Shown: one piece after another, positions 10,334 through 33,764 of the stretch
Numbering within the stretch: the stretch's first letter is position 1
Layout: each line of letters starts with the position of its first letter
DNA from: Spirochaetes bacterium ADurb.Bin218
Lineage (GTDB): Bacteria > Spirochaetota > UBA4802 > UBA5550
Length of the DNA stretch: 33,764 nucleotides
Direction of reading: 5' to 3'
NCBI GenBank assembly: GCA_002069965.1
Contig: MWCI01000036.1
Span: 1-33,764 of the forward strand
The notes under the pieces: generated by a model
Databases searched by the model: none
What the model was told of the DNA's origin: nothing
The model's input: only the letters and a program-made list of their open reading frames with translations
Position numbers and translations under genes: made by a program

Positions 10334-10411
10334 AATTTGTTATTTTACAGGAAAAAGCGTTTTTAAAAGTTATAAAATTCTTGCAATACAAAGCTTTTTT
10401 TATTTGATGGC

Positions 10412-10470
10412 TATTGGCGATGGGGTTCGCCATTAACCGCCAGAGGGCTGATGACTCCTGCTTATAAAGT
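10412..10470 (+). promoter_or_regulatory. Fluoride riboswitch (crcB RNA motif)
   Basis: The segment reads GGCGATGGGGTTCGCC, then TTAACCGCC, then GGCTGATGACTCCT. These are the hallmark blocks of the crcB/fluoride aptamer (GGCGATGG...CGCC stem-loop, AACCGCC pseudoknot strand, GCTGATGACTCCT). It lies 28 nt upstream of the TTG start of a crcB/fluC gene, the classical regulated target. The conserved CTCCT (10455-10459) is complementary to the AGGAG of the ribosome site at 10488-10494, so ligand-free RNA could mask initiation; no strong terminator is seen between them. Fluoride binding should switch expression on. Confidence 0.95.
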
Positions 10471-10498: not shown

Positions 10499-10873
10499 TT
10501 GGAAAAGATAATTTATGTAGCCCTTGGTGGGAGTTTAGGTGCACTTTCCCGTTATGGTATAACACTCCTTTCTGTTAAGTTTTTTTCTTCTCGATTTCCT
10601 GTAGGGACATTAATTGTTAATCTCCTGGGATGTTTTCTAATAGGTATTGTTTTTACCTTAGGTGCAGAAAAAGATTTTATTTCACCTTCTTTTCGTTTGT
10701 TTTTTATCACAGGTTTTCTGGGTGCTCTAACTACTTTTTCTACATATGGAATTGAAAGTATAAATCTTGCTCGTTCTGGAGATTTAAATGTCTCCATTGC
10801 AAATATAGCAGCTAACAATCTTGTGGGCTTTTTGTTGGTTCTTGCAGGAATCTGGATTGGGAAAAATATCTAA
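10499..10873 (+). CDS. crcB: Fluoride channel CrcB/FluC
   Basis: A 124-aa, four-helix membrane protein of the CrcB/FluC family, which exports fluoride passively as a dual-topology dimer. Diagnostic stretches are GGSLGALSRYG near the N-terminus, FPVGTLIVNLLGCFLIG (with the conserved Asn of the pore) and FITGFLGALTTFSTYGIE (with the Phe and TTFST elements of the fluoride and central sodium sites). The start is a TTG at 10499 behind a strong AGGAGGG at 10488-10494; no ATG is available nearby in frame. It is the first gene after the fluoride riboswitch and is followed 15 nt later by a DUF190/CBS gene, so the two form an operon. Confidence 0.96.
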   Translation: MEKIIYVALGGSLGALSRYGITLLSVKFFSSRFPVGTLIVNLLGCFLIGIVFTLGAEKDFISPSFRLFFITGFLGALTTFSTYGIESINLARSGDLNVSIANIAANNLVGFLLVLAGIWIGKNI

Positions 10874-12180: not shown

Positions 12181-12834
12181 ATGACATATAAAAAATTTGA
12201 TAACATTTTTTTTGATTTAGATGGGACTTTGACAGATTCAGCACCGGGCATAATTAATTCAATAGTTTATGCTCTGTCTAAATATAATATATTTCCTGAC
12301 AGAAAACTGCTATATAAGTTTATAGGCCCTCCTCTAAGAGAGTCTTTTTCTAAATATTATGGATTTTCTTCTCAACAGGCAGAGGAGGCTGTTGCTTATT
12401 ATAGGGAATATTTTTCTGAAAAGGGGATTTATGAGAACAATTTGTATGAAGGAGTGGAGCATCTTCTCAAAGAGTTAAATGTTCGTGGCTGCAATCTATT
12501 TCTTGCCACCTCCAAGCCTTATGAATATGCCTTGCAGGTTTTAAAAAATTTTAAGATCTATAATTATTTTAAAGCTATTGGAGCAGCCTCCTTTGATGGG
12601 AGCAAGACAAAAAAGAGCGAAATTCTTAGATCTCTCATAGATGATATAGGAAATCTTGATTTAACTAAGTCAGCTATGATTGGAGATAGGCTTTACGATA
12701 TTGAAGGAGCTAAGTCTGTTGGTATTTCTTCAATTGCTGTTTTGTATGGATATGGGGATGAAGAAGAGTTAAGACAGGCTAACCCTGATTTTATGGTCAA
12801 AAGTGTTGCGGAGTTATTACAACTTTTGCTTTAA
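12181..12834 (+). CDS. HAD-family phosphatase (Gph/PGP-like)
   Basis: A 217-aa cytoplasmic HAD hydrolase. Motif I FFDLDGTLTDS carries the nucleophile and general-acid aspartates (~D12, D14). A helical type-1 cap follows (residues ~20-90), then motif II (ATSKP, ~108-112), the motif III lysine (SKTKKSEIL) and motif IV (MIGDRLYDIEGA). It is nearest to phosphoglycolate phosphatase and similar nucleotide/sugar phosphatases, but the substrate cannot be read from sequence. ATG 12181 is only 8 nt after the DUF190/CBS stop, so it is probably co-transcribed with the fluoride operon. Fluoride inhibits many phosphatases and enolase, which could explain the linkage, but that is inference. Confidence 0.88.
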   Translation: MTYKKFDNIFFDLDGTLTDSAPGIINSIVYALSKYNIFPDRKLLYKFIGPPLRESFSKYYGFSSQQAEEAVAYYREYFSEKGIYENNLYEGVEHLLKELNVRGCNLFLATSKPYEYALQVLKNFKIYNYFKAIGAASFDGSKTKKSEILRSLIDDIGNLDLTKSAMIGDRLYDIEGAKSVGISSIAVLYGYGDEEELRQANPDFMVKSVAELLQLLL

Positions 12835-28106: not shown

Positions 28107-29786
28107 TTAAGCACTGAGTTGTTGATCTTGCTCTCTAATTTTTATTGCTCTTTTTGCAGCAGATTCAAAATCAGTTGTAATATTTTCTTGTCCAATTTCA
28201 TCTATAAATCTGGCTTTGGTCATTGTCTTCATTGGCTGTTCATTTACCTCAGAGAGAATCATCCTTGTGCCAACTTCTTTACATCTTGCAAGAAGTCGCC
28301 TGAGAGCGTGAAGAGCTGTAGCATCCATTGCAGGGACATGTCTCATCCTGATTATAAGAACAGGAACTGGTTTTCTGTATTGTAGAGCATTTTCAAGAAA
28401 TTTATCAGCAATTCCAAAGAAAAATGGGCCATTGATCTCATATATGCCTATGCCCTTTGGTAGATGTATGTTTTTTCTTTCAAGAAAATACTTAAGCTCA
28501 ATATTGTCATCGGTAATCTTGTCATGGGAAAAGCGCAATCTTTCGGATGTAACATCAGACATTCGTTTCATAAAAAGTAGCGCTGCAAAGATCATTCCTA
28601 TTTCTATAGCAACAACAAGATCTATTAATACTGTTAAAAAGAATGTTACAAGCAAAACTGTAATATCGCTTTTGGGTGCTTTTAGCAGCATTTTAAAGCT
28701 ATGCCATTCACTCATATTATATGCCACAAATACCAGTATTGCTGCAAGTGCTGCCATCGGTATATATTTTGCCAGAGGCATAAGCAAGACAAGCATTACA
28801 AGAAGCACAACAGCATGAGTCATCCCAGCCAGAGGAGTTCGTCCCCCATTGTTTACATTTGCAGCAGTCCTTGCTATGGCACCTGTTGCTGGTAGTCCTC
28901 CTAAAGATGCTGATGCTATATTTGCAACTCCCTGAGCAATGAGTTCTGTGTTAGGTCTGTGAGCACCACCTATCATACCATCTGCAACAACAGCAGAAAG
29001 AAGTGACTCAATCCCCGCAAGAAGTGCAATAGTCATAGCAGGCATTATTAGGTGTTCAATTTGTTCAATAGATATTTGTGGAATTGATAGGGATGGCAGG
29101 CTTGAAGAGATCTCTCCAAATTTTGAACCAATGGTTTCTACAGGTATATTAAAAAAATAGACAAAAATTGAAGATAAAATTACTGCCACAAGTGAGCCAG
29201 GAATCTTATCAGTAATTTTTGGCCACAGTAAGATTAGAGTCAAAGAAGCAAGAGCGATGCCGAAAGCCCAGTAATTTATACTATGGATGTTTAGTAAAAA
29301 TATTTTCCACATCGATATAAAACCAGAAGGCATTTTATCTATTGAAAGACCTAAAAAGTCTTTGATTTGAGTTGTAAATATAACAACTGCTATACCACTT
29401 GTAAAACCTGTTGTGATTGGATAAGGGATTAGTCTTATAAAGGTTCCAAGTTTTAATAGACCAAAAATGATTAAAAAAAACCCAGCCATTATTGTAGCAA
29501 CTAACAGCCCATCATATCCATATTTTTGTATTATGTTGAATACAATAATTACAAAGGCACCTGTAGGCCCCCCTATCTGAACTCTGCTGCCACCTAGAAA
29601 AGAAATTAAAAAGCCTGCAATTATCGCTGTATGCAGGCCTTTTTCCGGAGTAGCTCCTGATGCTATTGCAAGGGCAATGGATAGGGGTAAGGCAATTATG
29701 GCAACCACAACCCCTGCTGTAATGTCTTTGATTATTTGTTCTTTTGTAAATGTTTTAAAAAGCGAAAAAAACTTAGGCTTAAACAA
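28107..29786 (-). CDS. SulP-family anion transporter with STAS domain
   Basis: A 559-aa inner-membrane transporter. Residues ~10-430 hold the SLC26/SulP core with many helices (DITAGVVVAIIALPLSIALAIASG, PEKGLHTAIIAGFLISFLGG, QIGGPTGAFVIIV, GVANIASASLGGLPATGAIARTAANVNNGGRTPLAG). Residues ~445-555 form a STAS domain (LIIRMRHVPAMDATALHALRRLL). Substrate could be sulfate, bicarbonate or another anion. I start it at the TTG at 29786 because AAAGGAGG lies 7 nt before it; the upstream ATG at 29825 has no ribosome site and would place that site inside the gene. Alone in its transcript. Confidence 0.9.
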   Translation of the reverse strand: MFKPKFFSLFKTFTKEQIIKDITAGVVVAIIALPLSIALAIASGATPEKGLHTAIIAGFLISFLGGSRVQIGGPTGAFVIIVFNIIQKYGYDGLLVATIMAGFFLIIFGLLKLGTFIRLIPYPITTGFTSGIAVVIFTTQIKDFLGLSIDKMPSGFISMWKIFLLNIHSINYWAFGIALASLTLILLWPKITDKIPGSLVAVILSSIFVYFFNIPVETIGSKFGEISSSLPSLSIPQISIEQIEHLIMPAMTIALLAGIESLLSAVVADGMIGGAHRPNTELIAQGVANIASASLGGLPATGAIARTAANVNNGGRTPLAGMTHAVVLLVMLVLLMPLAKYIPMAALAAILVFVAYNMSEWHSFKMLLKAPKSDITVLLVTFFLTVLIDLVVAIEIGMIFAALLFMKRMSDVTSERLRFSHDKITDDNIELKYFLERKNIHLPKGIGIYEINGPFFFGIADKFLENALQYRKPVPVLIIRMRHVPAMDATALHALRRLLARCKEVGTRMILSEVNEQPMKTMTKARFIDEIGQENITTDFESAAKRAIKIREQDQQLSA

Positions 29787-30059
29787 AATAAATCCTCCTT
29801 TGGAAAATAAATATGGCGTTATCATAGATCTTCTATGTATTTGTCAAGAAGATTGGGGAAAAATAATTTTAATACAAAATGATTCACATGTAAGTAATAG
29901 AGGATAAAAAATTAATTTACATGATGGCAAATATATATTACATGAGGTAAAAAGTAATGAAGGATGACCTGTATTAGCAGGCACCTGATTTAGTTGAAAT
30001 TTTCAAGCACTTATCTAAAGATTATCTTTGATAACACAATAAATTAAAGGAGTAACCAC

Positions 30060-30403
30060 ATGTCACCGCTTCTGTATTTATTAAAAAAAGTTAAAAATAG
30101 AAAAAGAGTAATGACAGTTCTTACAAAAAATGAAAGATTACAAATATTAGAATTGATCATAAATAAAAAGCATAAATTTATGATTTCTATGCTTTACGGA
30201 TCCGGACTGAGAGTTGTGAAGTAGTCAATTTGAAAATCAAAGATATTGATTTTCAAAAAAATAAGTCGCTCATTAGAAACTCTAAATGCAAAAAAGATCG
30301 AATAACCTTGCTTTCTTCTCTTTTACATAATGATTTAAAAGAATTGATTAATATCAGAAAATTAAATGAATATTTATTTACAACTCCCCAATATCCAGTC
30401 TAG
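30060..30403 (+). pseudogene. intI: Decayed integron integrase (IntI-like tyrosine recombinase)
   Basis: ATG 30060 (AAAGGAG upstream) opens a 54-codon frame ending in LTKNERLQILELIINKKHKF and then MISMLYGSGLR, the IntI/Xer catalytic-Arg region. At ~30220 the frame breaks; the next frame continues with EVVNLKIKDIDFQKNKSLIRN, CKKDRITLL to the stop at 30401-30403, again as in IntI (VKDIDF...GKGGKDR). One base inserted or lost restores the match. The N-terminal half is missing apart from possible traces (HLSKDYL; HVTAS in another frame, from ~29985), and the C-terminal His-Arg-His/Tyr part is absent. It is therefore inactive. It lies beside the cassette array and points towards it. The flanks (29787-30059 and 30404-30549) hold no gene that I can support. 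Confidence 0.78.
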
Positions 30404-30549
30404 ACTTAATTTAGTTTTAACTTTTCCAATAAATTTTCTTTTTCTTGATTGAGTGATTTAAAACACCTTTAATGTATTAAAAGTATATATTTTTTTAAAA
30501 GACTCTAATAATGACTATCTGTATTTTATGAGGGGTATTATACAATTAG

Positions 30550-30614
30550 AAGTAACGTTTTCAGCATAAAAGAAGTTGCCGAAGCGAAGCGCAGCCGGGT
30601 AATCGCTGTTATAT
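30550..30614 (-). repeat. attC site of the GNAT cassette (end of array)
   Basis: Minus-strand reading: ATATAAC, then AGCGATTACCCGGC ... TTATGCTGAAAA, then CGTTACTT. The inner part GCGCTTCGCTTCGGCAACTTC is unlike that of the long attC sites. It is the shortest complete attC here (65 nt) and the R' box, GTTACTT, differs from the others, consistent with being the outer edge of the array. Confidence 0.75.
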
Positions 30615-30630
30615 GACGTGGTGCACATTT

Positions 30631-31107
30631 TCATATCCTTTTACGCATATGTTCCCTAAATGTATTATACCCTAATTTCTTCCAGCAACTTATACCTGTG
30701 CTATTATTTGATATGACATTTAATTCCATGTATTCAAGATGATTTTCTTTAAAGAAGTATATCATCATCTTTTCTAATTCTTTCATTATCCCTTTATTTC
30801 TATACTCATCTGTAACATAAGCAGCTGATATATATCCTACTTTATCAATTTTTAAATTTGGTAGGAAACAACTGGTAATCTCTCCAGCAATAAAGCCAAT
30901 AATATTATTGTTCTCAGCGGCAATGAATGTCTTTTTAGTCTTATCTTGAATATCTTTAATAAGTTTATCATTTATGCTTACTTGTGAAAGATCATTAAAT
31001 TCAAAATATGGATCTCTTGTCTCAAGTTTTATATACAGAAGTAAACTTTCATATAATTTCGATAACTTCGGTATATCATCTTTTATTATTTCTCTGAATT
31101 CAATCAT
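30631..31107 (-). CDS. GNAT acetyltransferase (cassette gene)
   Basis: A 158-aa GNAT protein in an integron cassette. Acetyl-CoA motif A is at AAYVTDEYRNKGIMKELEKMM (R-x-x-G-x-x); the C-terminal motif B is NVISNNSTGISCWKKLGYNTF. An open frame extends upstream to 31185, but that part reads through the attC site; ATG 31107, with TGAGG upstream, is the real start. Acceptor unknown; cassette acetyltransferases may modify antibiotics, toxins or metabolites. The attC begins 16 nt after the stop. Confidence 0.88.
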   Translation of the reverse strand: MIEFREIIKDDIPKLSKLYESLLLYIKLETRDPYFEFNDLSQVSINDKLIKDIQDKTKKTFIAAENNNIIGFIAGEITSCFLPNLKIDKVGYISAAYVTDEYRNKGIMKELEKMMIYFFKENHLEYMELNVISNNSTGISCWKKLGYNTFREHMRKRI

Positions 31108-31134
31108 TATTTTATTCCTCAGTTGCGCCATGTC

Positions 31135-31212
31135 ATATAACGGTTTTCTTATGCGAAGTTGCCGAAGGCAATTTGGGTAAAGCAAAGCGGAACCGCATAT
31201 TCGCTGTTCTAC
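31135..31212 (-). repeat. attC site between the 105-aa and GNAT cassettes
   Basis: Minus-strand reading: GTAGAAC, AGCGAATATGCGG ..., ...CGCATAAGAAAAC, CGTTATAT. The 78-nt site has inverted inner arms (ATATGCGG and CCGCAT-like; TTGCCTTCGGCAA as the tip). The outer boxes do not pair perfectly (GTAGAAC against GTTATAT), as expected where different cassettes have joined. Confidence 0.78.
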
Positions 31213-31296
31213 GCCCCGACGACTGAAAGGAGGAGAGGGAAGCGTGGCACGGAGTTAAGCGAAGTGAATTCAAAAAATATTTTTCGCTCTTACTCA

Positions 31297-31614
31297 TCAT
31301 GATCGGCTTTCCTCAATTAATTTATCCAAATCAAGAATTTCTAAATATTTTTTCCTATCTTTTTCAAAATCATCAATACCTTCATTTAAAATATTTTTTA
31401 AAGCAATATTTTTATCCTTTTTCTTTTTCTCAGGAGGAGTATTCCCAAAATGTTTTGCTAACTTTTGAAGTTGATTATTATCGATTGAATTTCCAGCTTC
31501 AGTCTCAATAAATTTATGATAATAATCATAGAAATTTGCTTTTATCTCTGTATGAACTTGTTCAATATGGGACTCTTCGTAGCAAATTTCTTCAATTGCA
31601 TTTGGATAATACAT
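31297..31614 (-). CDS. Hypothetical 105-aa cassette protein
   Basis: A 105-aa polar, acidic and lysine-rich protein, no signal peptide or membrane helix, mostly helical in appearance (EEICYEESHIEQVHTEIKAN; KNILNEGIDDFEKDRKKYLE; a KKKKDK stretch in the middle). I recognise no family. ATG 31614 is preceded by GAGGTAGG. It is the only gene of its cassette and ends about 85 nt before the attC. It could be an antitoxin-like or phage-defence accessory, but nothing in the sequence shows it. Confidence 0.7.
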   Translation of the reverse strand: MYYPNAIEEICYEESHIEQVHTEIKANFYDYYHKFIETEAGNSIDNNQLQKLAKHFGNTPPEKKKKDKNIALKNILNEGIDDFEKDRKKYLEILDLDKLIEESRS

Positions 31615-31695
31615 TTTATACCTACCTCAAAATTAGTTATCCTTACCGTGCACGGATGTGCGGTTGTCTTTTAAAAAAGATTGGCACGTCATTTC

Positions 31696-31804
31696 ACATA
31701 ACGTTCCCGGTGTATGCGACGTTTTCACCGTAGCGCAGCGAAGGTGAAAATGTGGCGAAGCCCAAGCGAACGCCAGGGAGTGAAGCGCATAAGCTTTGTT
31801 ATGT
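31696..31804 (-). repeat. attC site between HrgA-like and 105-aa cassettes
   Basis: Outer boxes ACATAAC (31696-31702) and GTTATGT (31798-31804) pair perfectly. Inner arms pair through TATGCG/CGCATA, and a tip arm TTTTCACC/GGTGAAAA lies inside. 109 nt. The first 30 nt on the + strand from 31698 are identical to 33735-33764 at the right edge. The stop codon of the upstream cassette gene is inside the outer box. Confidence 0.85.
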
Positions 31805-32797
31805 GACGTTTTTCGCCCCTTTCTTTAACTTAATCTTTATATGCTCATCAATTTTATCAATATCCATTACATCATCATATTCATGTTTGTGAATTCTGCC
31901 GCCTTCAAAATCAATTTTTACGTTCATGATGAATTTTTCAAAATCGGGATTTTGTTCGCACAATTTATTCATCAATTCCCAGTCAAGATTTTCTTTATAT
32001 CTTGCTAAACAAATAACTCTTGATGAATCTATGTCTTCAAGGTCTAAATGAATAATTCCAATACCAAAAGACATTGATAATCTTTCTAATTCGGAAAGTA
32101 AATCATCATCTTGTTTTATATCCGATGCTACCAAATAACCTTCATTTGCCCAAGACGAGTTTGAAACCGCTTGGAAAAAACATTCTCTATAATTACTTTT
32201 ATCTATTCGTTTTTTTAATTCAAAAGAATAAAATTTCAAAGTATTCGAATTTATATTTTTACTCAATCTAAAAATCGCATCATTCCATTCTTCAATAGGA
32301 ATATAAAATCCAACGATATCCGGATGAATCCATTGATTGAGTCCTATTCCTTTCTTTGATGTTTCATGATATATAGTTTTTGTGTATATTGCTTTACCTT
32401 TATTAAATTCTATATTGGTATAAGCAAAATATGATAATAATGGATGCAAATCTCTTTCGTCAAAACTTAATTGTTTATTTTCATTTTTCTCTGTTTTGAT
32501 TTCATCTTTTTGAATATTTATAATAGTTTCATTTGAAAGTTCGCTTTGTCTTTTCTTTAAAAAGAATCTTGCAGGGTTTTTTCCAACCTTAATAAATCGA
32601 CTATTCTCATTATCTCTTACATCAACGAATAACAAAGCACCTAAGCTTTGCCACGGAGTCTTTCCATTGATTTGAAGTTTGTTGTAAAAGTCTTTAGTAA
32701 TTCCAATATCCCATATTTCTTTATACGTTAAAGGTTTATCAGAAAGATTTAATACATCGTCCGCAAAGTCTAATAATGAATAATCTTTTTTAGGCAT
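31799..32797 (-). CDS. HrgA-like protein with HARE-HTH domain (cassette gene)
   Basis: A 332-aa protein (338 aa from the GTG at 32815). Residues ~1-75 fit a HARE-HTH/RpoE-delta-like winged helix (LLDFADDVLNLSDKPLTYKEIWDIG ... GKTPWQSLGALLFVDVRDNENSRFIKVGKNPARFFL), very like the N-terminus of HrgA (COG2958), known next to restriction genes in Helicobacter pylori. The rest is strand/helix-mixed (HPLLSYFAYTNIEFNKGKAIYTKTIYHE ... GLNQWIHPDIVGFY ... LKFYSFELKK) and may be a PD-(D/E)xK-type nuclease fold (DIVGFY, FELKK spacing), unproven. Start: ATG 32797, with GAGG 12 nt upstream, or GTG 32815. The stop TAA is formed by the attC box ACATAAC. Confidence 0.8.
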   Translation of the reverse strand: MPKKDYSLLDFADDVLNLSDKPLTYKEIWDIGITKDFYNKLQINGKTPWQSLGALLFVDVRDNENSRFIKVGKNPARFFLKKRQSELSNETIINIQKDEIKTEKNENKQLSFDERDLHPLLSYFAYTNIEFNKGKAIYTKTIYHETSKKGIGLNQWIHPDIVGFYIPIEEWNDAIFRLSKNINSNTLKFYSFELKKRIDKSNYRECFFQAVSNSSWANEGYLVASDIKQDDDLLSELERLSMSFGIGIIHLDLEDIDSSRVICLARYKENLDWELMNKLCEQNPDFEKFIMNVKIDFEGGRIHKHEYDDVMDIDKIDEHIKIKLKKGAKNVT

Positions 32798-32852
32798 TAG
32801 ATTTATAAACCTCACATATTTTCTTTATAGATTAAGACAGACGAAAAATGTC

Positions 32853-33011
32853 ACATAACGTTTTGCTTATGCGACGTTTGCGACGGAAAGCAAAACGCTT
32901 CTGTTAAAAAAAATATTTTGAAACTTTTAAATTCATGCTACAACAAGTTAGCAAATGTGCCGCCAGCCCAAGCGAGTCTTTTCGCGAGCGCCGCGGGTAA
33001 GCTTTGTTATC
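32853..33011 (-). repeat. attC site of the vapBC cassette
   Basis: Outer boxes CGATAAC (minus strand, 33011-33005) and GTTATGT (32859-32853); inner arms GCTTACC... and ...GTCGCATAAGCAAAAC. At 159 nt it is the longest site and has a large interior with weaker pairing. It begins 12 nt after the vapC stop. Confidence 0.8.
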
Positions 33012-33022
33012 GGCTGTTGCAC

Positions 33023-33427
33023 TTATTTCGCGATCCAGTTTTCTATTTTTAAACTTTTTACTCTTTCAAATTCTTTTGTATTATTTGTTACAAGTATTCC
33101 GTTTTTTGCTAAAACTGTTGCAGCAATGATATAGTCATTTGGCCCTATAATGTCTCCTCTCAACTCCATTGCCGATCGAATTTTTGAATAGATAATTGAA
33201 CAATCATCATCAAATGGTATTATCTCAAAAGGTTCTAAAAATCGATTGATATTAGCTAAATTTTTAGCTTTATGCTGGCTTTTTTCAGCACCATAAAGAA
33301 GCTCTGCTTTAACGATGAAAGGTATTTTAATATTATTCGGATTGGTATTTTGTATATTTTCCATTATAGAAGGATATAATCCTTTAAGAAAATATACACA
33401 TATATTTGAATCAAGATAATATATCAT
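33023..33427 (-). CDS. vapC: VapC-type PIN-domain toxin
   Basis: A 134-aa PIN ribonuclease. Acidic catalytic residues visible at YLDSN (D6), KAELLYG (E42), PNDYIIAA (Asp ~98) and the C-terminal LVTNNTKEF (Asn/Asp position). It starts within the end of vapB (4-nt overlap), the classic antitoxin-toxin order. VapC enzymes cleave tRNA or rRNA when antitoxin is lost. Position in an integron cassette is typical: toxin-antitoxin modules are frequent there and oppose loss of the array. Confidence 0.93.
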   Translation of the reverse strand: MIYYLDSNICVYFLKGLYPSIMENIQNTNPNNIKIPFIVKAELLYGAEKSQHKAKNLANINRFLEPFEIIPFDDDCSIIYSKIRSAMELRGDIIGPNDYIIAATVLAKNGILVTNNTKEFERVKSLKIENWIAK

Positions 33428-33651
33428 AAACTTTCTCTTTTTGAATCATGATCGAATGATAAATTCTTTATCTCAAACGATTTGTCTGTTATAGAACCGA
33501 ATAAATCAAAATATCCTTCAGGGTAATCTTCCTTAATTATTTTTCTAATATTATTGCCTACCCATTTTGAAATTGAAAGACGTTCTTTAGCAGCGGCTTT
33601 TTCTATCTTGGCCAAGGTATCTTTGTCGATATATAATGATATTTGTGGCAT
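33424..33651 (-). CDS. vapB: VapB-type antitoxin (ribbon-helix-helix)
   Basis: A 75-aa protein with an N-terminal RHH DNA-binding motif (PQISLYIDKDTLAKIEKAAAKERLSISKWVGNNI) and a flexible C-terminal tail (YFDLFGSITDKSFEIKNL) that would fill the VapC active site. ATG 33651 follows AGATTTCCT-type sequence without a strong ribosome site. Overlaps vapC. Probably represses its own promoter. Confidence 0.88.
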   Translation of the reverse strand: MPQISLYIDKDTLAKIEKAAAKERLSISKWVGNNIRKIIKEDYPEGYFDLFGSITDKSFEIKNLSFDHDSKRESL

Positions 33652-33669
33652 AGGAAATCTCGTATGATA

Positions 33670-33698
33670 AAGATAATAAATGGGTAGTTAAAAGTCAA
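33670..33698 (-). promoter_or_regulatory. Promoter of the vapBC cassette
   Basis: On the minus strand TTGACT (33698-33693) and TATCTT (33675-33670) lie 17 nt apart, 19 nt before the vapB ATG. The cassette therefore carries its own promoter and need not rely on an integron Pc promoter. Confidence 0.55.
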
Positions 33699-33732
33699 GT
33701 ATATTTGCAAGTATAATTCTAAGTGCAATTGC

Positions 33733-33764
33733 CGATAACGTTCCCGGTGTATGCGACGTTTTCA
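33733..33764 (-). repeat. Partial attC site at right edge
   Basis: CGATAACGTTCCCGGTGTATG and onwards: 30 nt from 33735 are identical to 31698-31727, so this is the outer arm of another attC. It shows that at least one more cassette follows beyond the window. Confidence 0.8.

Follow-up and report, generated by a model that had tools for sequence, protein, structure and literature searches.

The window analysed here is a stretch of 33,764 nucleotides that makes up the entire contig C36 of the draft genome of Spirochaetes bacterium ADurb.Bin218 (3.03 Mb, 160 contigs), and it carries a broken tyrosine recombinase gene that faces the old end of an integron-type cassette array. Our data indicate that this relic is a dead copy, truncated at the N- and C-terminus and frameshifted, of an integron-type integrase lacking the IntI-specific additional domain (the I2/patch III region between the Lys box and the HxxR box; enzymes without it are termed patchless below). 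It would have no present role, would probably derive from the second of two patchless lineages, types I and II, that occur beside cassette arrays, and would lie at the distal end of an array of normal polarity that is fed from the other end. To this explanation as a whole we assign a single joint probability of roughly 0.68.

Results

The relic comprises the first half of the catalytic domain of a tyrosine recombinase, only ~110 amino acids, and occupies positions 30060-30400 of the + strand in two overlapping reading frames with one frameshift. The first piece (30060..30222, frame 1) covers the catalytic domain from its beginning to the Arg box (MSPLLYLLKKVKNRKRVMTVLTKNERLQILELIINKKHKFMISMLYGSGLRV) and matches the IntI profile TIGR02249 with E=4.4e-7; the motif AAAGGAG is seen 8 nt 5' of its ATG at 30060. 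The second piece (30215..30400, start approximate, frame 3) extends from the Lys box to LNEYLFTT without the additional domain and stops ahead of the HxxR and Tyr boxes (TIGR02249 E=1.5e-8, NF040815 E=1.3e-8). Each piece is thus matched alone, and when the two were joined TIGR02249 was their top NCBIfam match (E=1.6e-21, 77 bits). Positions 29985-30556 were dinucleotide-shuffled 300 times and translated in six frames; no shuffle scored above 9.2 bits with the family profiles, compared with 35.7 and 43.8 bits for the real pieces with the type II profile. Two catalytic motifs are retained, the first Arg box (YGSGLRV) and the Lys box (KKDR), while HxxR, the second His and the Tyr are missing, and no remnant of the N-terminal (core-binding) or C-terminal part was found in 29700-30700. 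The relic is probably inert. An earlier sequence-only reading of this DNA had reported IntI-like fragments in two frames of the + strand without the C-terminal catalytic part, and the profile matches in both frames confirm that description.

The name IntI, in contrast, could not be kept. Judged from its sequence, the relic does not qualify as a strict-sense IntI, and its best relatives are patchless recombinases. Between the Lys box and LNEYLF, the aligned relic lacks the ~40-residue insertion that marks IntI at this place; this domain was present in all 10 IntI proteins compared and absent from the relic, type I and type II. The residues between the Lys box and HxxR number 61-62 in type I (43 sequences), 63-67 in type II (9) and 66-68 in Xer, as opposed to 103 in IntI (10). 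When the type I profile was aligned with the IntI4 chain (PDB 2A3V) it skipped residues 182-237, whereas XerA (4A8E) was aligned throughout. Both patchless families outscore IntI on the relic (type II 99.2, type I 91.1, IntI 77.7 bits), and in a tree of 106 columns the relic joined type II plus IntI (ultrafast bootstrap, UFBoot, 87); it probably belongs to the type II lineage. With a curated TIGR02249 cut-off of 265, the relic (77), type I (200.7-214.4) and type II (205.1-209.6) all remain below. Of the residues that define IntI strictly (R, K, HxxR, H/W, Y) the relic has the R and K boxes only, whereas intact type I and II proteins have them all.

An alignment with a Xer recombinase rather than IntI had been named in advance as an outcome that would overturn the sequence-only reading, and half of it materialised: the fold belongs to the XerA/IntI-like class and lacks the patch, but the genes around the relatives mark these as integron integrases. 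With the XerC and XerD profiles TIGR02224 and TIGR02225, types I and II reach 163-200 bits, against cut-offs near 330, and a probable housekeeping XerC/XerD pair is encoded on contigs C34 and C41. The XerA-like proteins (NF040815; PDB 4A8E, 5HXY) have the same domain spacing and give the best full-length match (248.6 bits, cut-off 220), but types I and II are located at attI-like sites, whereas no cassette arrays are known to go with single chromosomal dif recombinases.

The array itself (30548-33764) consists of four complete tandem cassettes, with all genes on the - strand and an attC directly after the 3' end of each. The attC sites were recognised from the R''/L''/L'/R' arrangement read in the sequence; on the - strand, R'' and L'' are 5 nt apart, with a wider gap between L' and R'. 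An excised cassette circle must have complementary ends, and such ends were found in three of the four cassettes (GTTATATGAC with GTCATATAAC, GTTATGTGAC with GTCACATAAC, GTTATCGGC with GCCGATAAC). Gene strand, attC placement, spacer asymmetry and complementary ends together place the attI to the right, past the contig end. Cassettes thus enter from the right, so that the relic, whose 3' end lies ~150 nt from the last attC, adjoins the oldest site on its outer side and faces the array, convergent with every cassette gene. The position at the attI-distal end and the convergent orientation had both been read correctly from the sequence alone. The attC ends in the window carry an extended core as in the attI repeats of type I (GTTATATGACAT, GTTATGTGAAAT, GTTATGTGACAT), and no attI core was found 5' of the relic.

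The earlier reading had also proposed a spirochaete-specific layout with an active intI elsewhere and a genome search for a complete copy. No canonical IntI over the TIGR02249 cut-off was found in this genome or in 20 genomes of its family; 35 of the 296 spirochaetes have matches over it. The proposal stood insofar as contig C56 encodes one intact integrase in the same direction as its cassettes, but the enzyme is a patchless type I protein and not IntI. It is 352 amino acids long, has all catalytic residues and a HARP-like N-terminus (PF07443 weak, E=2.5e-4, under the gathering score). The core GTTGTACGCAAT / AGTTGTACGCAAT follows 121 nt past its stop codon, and then a cassette with an attC of complementary end. 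The predicted structure, of moderate quality (pLDDT, predicted local distance difference test, 83.5; pTM, predicted template modelling score, 0.54), matched IntI4 first and XerA next in the PDB. The C56 gene and its relatives show the reverse, Treponema-type layout; the relic, convergent with its array, does not. By eye, an IS3-like element lies 5' of the intact C56 integrase (L012:3180-4570).

Two further dead integrases were found. Contig C51 (L014:140-5318) holds an integron of classical layout with a broken type II gene, an attI core at 939 on its 5' side and four attC sites, the cassettes running away from the integrase; its cassette genes look nuclease-like, Na/H-antiporter-like and saccharopine-dehydrogenase-like (names by eye). 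Here as in the window, the cassettes are tandem, mostly in one direction and closed by attC. Contig C39 (L016:12837-14314) carries a heavily decayed type I integrase, of which N- and C-terminal pieces remain, followed by an HNH-like cassette and an attC; by eye, this gene stands directly behind a tRNA-like sequence near 12553-12625. The genome therefore has one intact (C56) and three dead patchless integrases (type I on C39, type II on C51 and type II-like in the window). Genome-wide there are 22 extended-core matches, 7 of them on these four contigs, which amount to about 3% of the genome.

The two lineages differ in layout. In type I, found in about twenty relatives with 45-55% identity, the N-terminus is HARP-like, the attI lies at the 3' end of the gene and the cassettes point the same way as the gene. 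Type II proteins carry their own N-terminal extension; their genes have the attI 5' and diverge from the cassettes as in classical integrons, and a promoter-like sequence of TTGACA type is directed into the array. At type I loci with enough flank the attI core was located on the 3' side in 11/18 and on the 5' side in 2/20, at type II loci on the 5' side in 8/9 and on the 3' side in 0/9; in shuffles the rate was 3.7%. An attI thus adjoins the integrase gene in both lineages, on C56 and C51 as well. In the stretch from the type I stop codon to the core, YG[AC][AC]AT direct repeats occur 24 times (2.6 expected) and are often 39 nt apart. A tree unites IntI with type II in a single clade (UFBoot 89; moderate support, small sampling), a hint from the sequences that the additional domain would have been gained inside a group that already had cassette arrays. 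Elsewhere, a patchless recombinase that branches within type I (L049:1587-2423) lies directly before an IS91-family-like transposase, and the type I family may also serve transposons.

Scanning about 85,000 genomes with type I yielded 80 loci, which are spread over many phyla. Type I integrases with attC arrays are also present in Flavobacterium, Paenibacillus, Ignavibacteria and other taxa, in most cases without a canonical IntI: among 14 non-spirochaete or distant type I genomes tested, IntI over the cut-off was lacking in 11 and both kinds were present in 3. Across phyla the core lay on the 3' side in 26/65 and on the 5' side in 3/65. A stricter test, which asked for an exact 9-base complement between the start of the first cassette and the end of its attC, was positive downstream in 21/61, with 3 upstream and 3 in shuffled sequence. 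At the Flavobacterium locus L130, at least 5 repeats of 120-165 nt, 83-92% alike, lie downstream of the integrase. The mean fold z of 29 attC-like sites was -2.77 for the bottom and -1.95 for the top strand (random segments +0.11), the bottom strand being more stable in 22. Type I patchless integrases were also seen in assemblies labelled Micrarchaeota, Altarchaeum, Undinarchaeales and Altiarchaeales (L069, L071, L075, L079, L103), of which L069 was positive in the cassette-end complement test.

Read from the relic outwards, all on the - strand, the window array begins with attC A (30548..30618), the last and oldest site, which looks degenerate: its outer end, CG|TTACTTC, is unlike the other sites and its fold z is about +0.8. 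The gene 30631..31107 encodes a GNAT acetyltransferase (PF00583, E=3.8e-12; ATG at 31107 read from the sequence) and is bordered by attC B (31129..31213; extended core GTTATATGACAT, z -0.84). Next stand a gene for 105 amino acids without Pfam match (31297..31614) and attC C (31691..31807), which forms a strong bottom-strand hairpin (z -4.60 bottom, -2.01 top). The gene 31799..32815 encodes a protein of 338 amino acids with a HARE-HTH domain (PF05066, E=5.6e-11), and attC D (32848..33015; extended core GTTATGTGACAT, z -0.62) separates it from a PIN-domain gene (33023..33427; PF01850, E=1.3e-16). The PIN-domain protein is probably the toxin of a toxin-antitoxin pair, and as a short open reading frame precedes it, the segment 33023-33652 looks like a toxin-antitoxin cassette within the array. 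The fifth site, attC E (33728..33764), is cut by the contig end; the 37 nt that remain nearly repeat (92%) a part of attC C. Scanning with a simple pattern for the attC arms produced ~130 chance matches per strand and was abandoned. Far from the array, a fluoride riboswitch (RF01734, E=3.2e-15) lies at 10407-10467 (+), ~30 nt before an open reading frame of 124 amino acids (10499-10873) that could encode a CrcB-type channel.

Discussion

According to the explanation that we favour, the array would be fed at its right end, outside the window, by an attI. The likely enzyme would be the intact type I integrase of C56, or a trans-acting equivalent, which most likely binds attI via the repeats and joins it to the attC of cassette circles. 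New cassettes would land beside the integrase gene and old ones would be displaced to the far side, the position seen in the window, where the relic would be what is left of a second integrase, probably a type II enzyme. This scheme supposes that C56 and the window are parts of a single array, that the relic is indeed type II and, as the anatomy of the loci suggests, that recombination between attI and folded attC is carried out by the patchless enzyme itself.

Several observations weigh against it. The window and C56 are separate draft contigs between which no link was found; cassette-end complementarity gave no join, both contigs ending inside the array. The margin of type II over type I for the relic is only 8 bits, on ~110 amino acids. 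Among the four attC sites that are complete in the window, A, B and D fold no better than shuffles, and only C folds clearly better. Finally, the name of NF040815 joins "site-specific tyrosine recombinase" and "integron integrase" and the model already covers these proteins, so the link of the patchless family to integrons may be partly known to curators.

Other origins of the relic have to be considered. Least unlikely among them, though still improbable, is that relic and array were once one integron brought face to face by inversion or translocation. The short distance between the relic and the last attC agrees with this, and since type I has its array 3', the observed picture would arise if the array of a type I-like layout were inverted; the relic, however, is closer to type II, whose array is 5', and no attI core remains 5' of it. 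When the corresponding place was sought via the neighbouring SulP gene in four relatives, neither array nor relic was present upstream. An inversion of the array is possible but not needed. We regard as more doubtful an origin from the recombinase of another mobile element, IS91-associated or a phage integrase. Short catalytic-domain recombinases of 214 amino acids and an IS91-linked one, all patchless, do occur in the same order, and the relic likewise starts at the catalytic domain, yet it does not join these proteins in the tree, and the identity it shares with them does not exceed that with integron-linked recombinases; its placement in the 214-residue family was likewise unsupported by the tree. 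Very improbable is a true IntI from a canonical integron that lost its additional domain during decay. The top NCBIfam match and one short tree that sets type II and the relic next to IntI would favour this, but the patch junction aligns closely with patchless relatives and shows no scar, the patchless profiles score higher, and no IntI over the cut-off was found in the genome or in the 20 genomes of its family.

A different objection concerns the patchless enzymes themselves, which might be bystanders while a canonical IntI moves the cassettes in trans or by transfer. In its favour, the I2 domain is held necessary for cassette capture and unique to IntI (PMC7790495), and 3 of the 14 non-spirochaete or distant genomes tested carry both kinds. 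An attI core at a fixed distance and side, the attI direct repeats, two lineages with opposite layouts and the absence of canonical IntI from 11/14 such genomes and from 20/20 of the family to which the window belongs make the bystander role unlikely. We consider it somewhat probable instead that I2-less integrases, which form two lineages of opposite layout, run true integrons with attI and arrays of single-strand-folding attC in phyla that include Spirochaetota, Bacteroidota and Bacillota. Because the domain is held necessary, another feature would replace it here or the enzymes would act differently: they may capture folded cassettes by another solution or, because canonical IntI branches beside patchless type II, represent the state from which IntI gained the domain.

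Chromosomal integrons of Treponema were reportedly treated by Wu in 2013. They are reverse or "inverted" integrons of same-direction layout, by the account of Coleman 2004 as cited in PMC3607928. They share with type I the phylum Spirochaetota, this layout and, by eye, a HARP-like N-terminal extension of IntI (L178, L179, L180), an extension that may be tied to the same-direction layout; unlike type I (61-62 residues between the boxes), Treponema IntI has the additional domain (103). Type II resembles classical chromosomal integrons, in which IntI is divergent from the cassettes, with attI and a promoter-like sequence 5' and cassettes running away, but differs in lacking the additional domain and in its own N-terminal extension. 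Archaeal integrons (Sci Adv 2022, PMC9668308) were described with the IntI-specific domain; like type I they have the attI directly downstream of the integrase gene, whereas the type I loci in archaeal assemblies found here lack the domain.

Searches of the open-access literature yielded no paper describing integrons whose integrase is patchless. Clusters of attC lacking an integrase are known as CALIN, and this is the label that IntI-domain surveys would give to the window and to many type I and II arrays, although, unlike in CALIN, an integrase does adjoin the arrays on C56 and in relatives. Integron surveys take the additional domain as an entry requirement (PMC8352920, PMC2426708), so arrays with patchless integrases would count as orphan attC clusters. 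For lack of intermediates, work on the origin of the domain has relied on directed evolution (PMC7790495). This spirochaete and many other bacteria place beside their arrays an integrase without the part thought essential for cassette capture. If these enzymes do work, integrons in Bacteroidota and Bacillota would be more widespread than reported, and the origin of single-strand recombination would become testable on natural enzymes.
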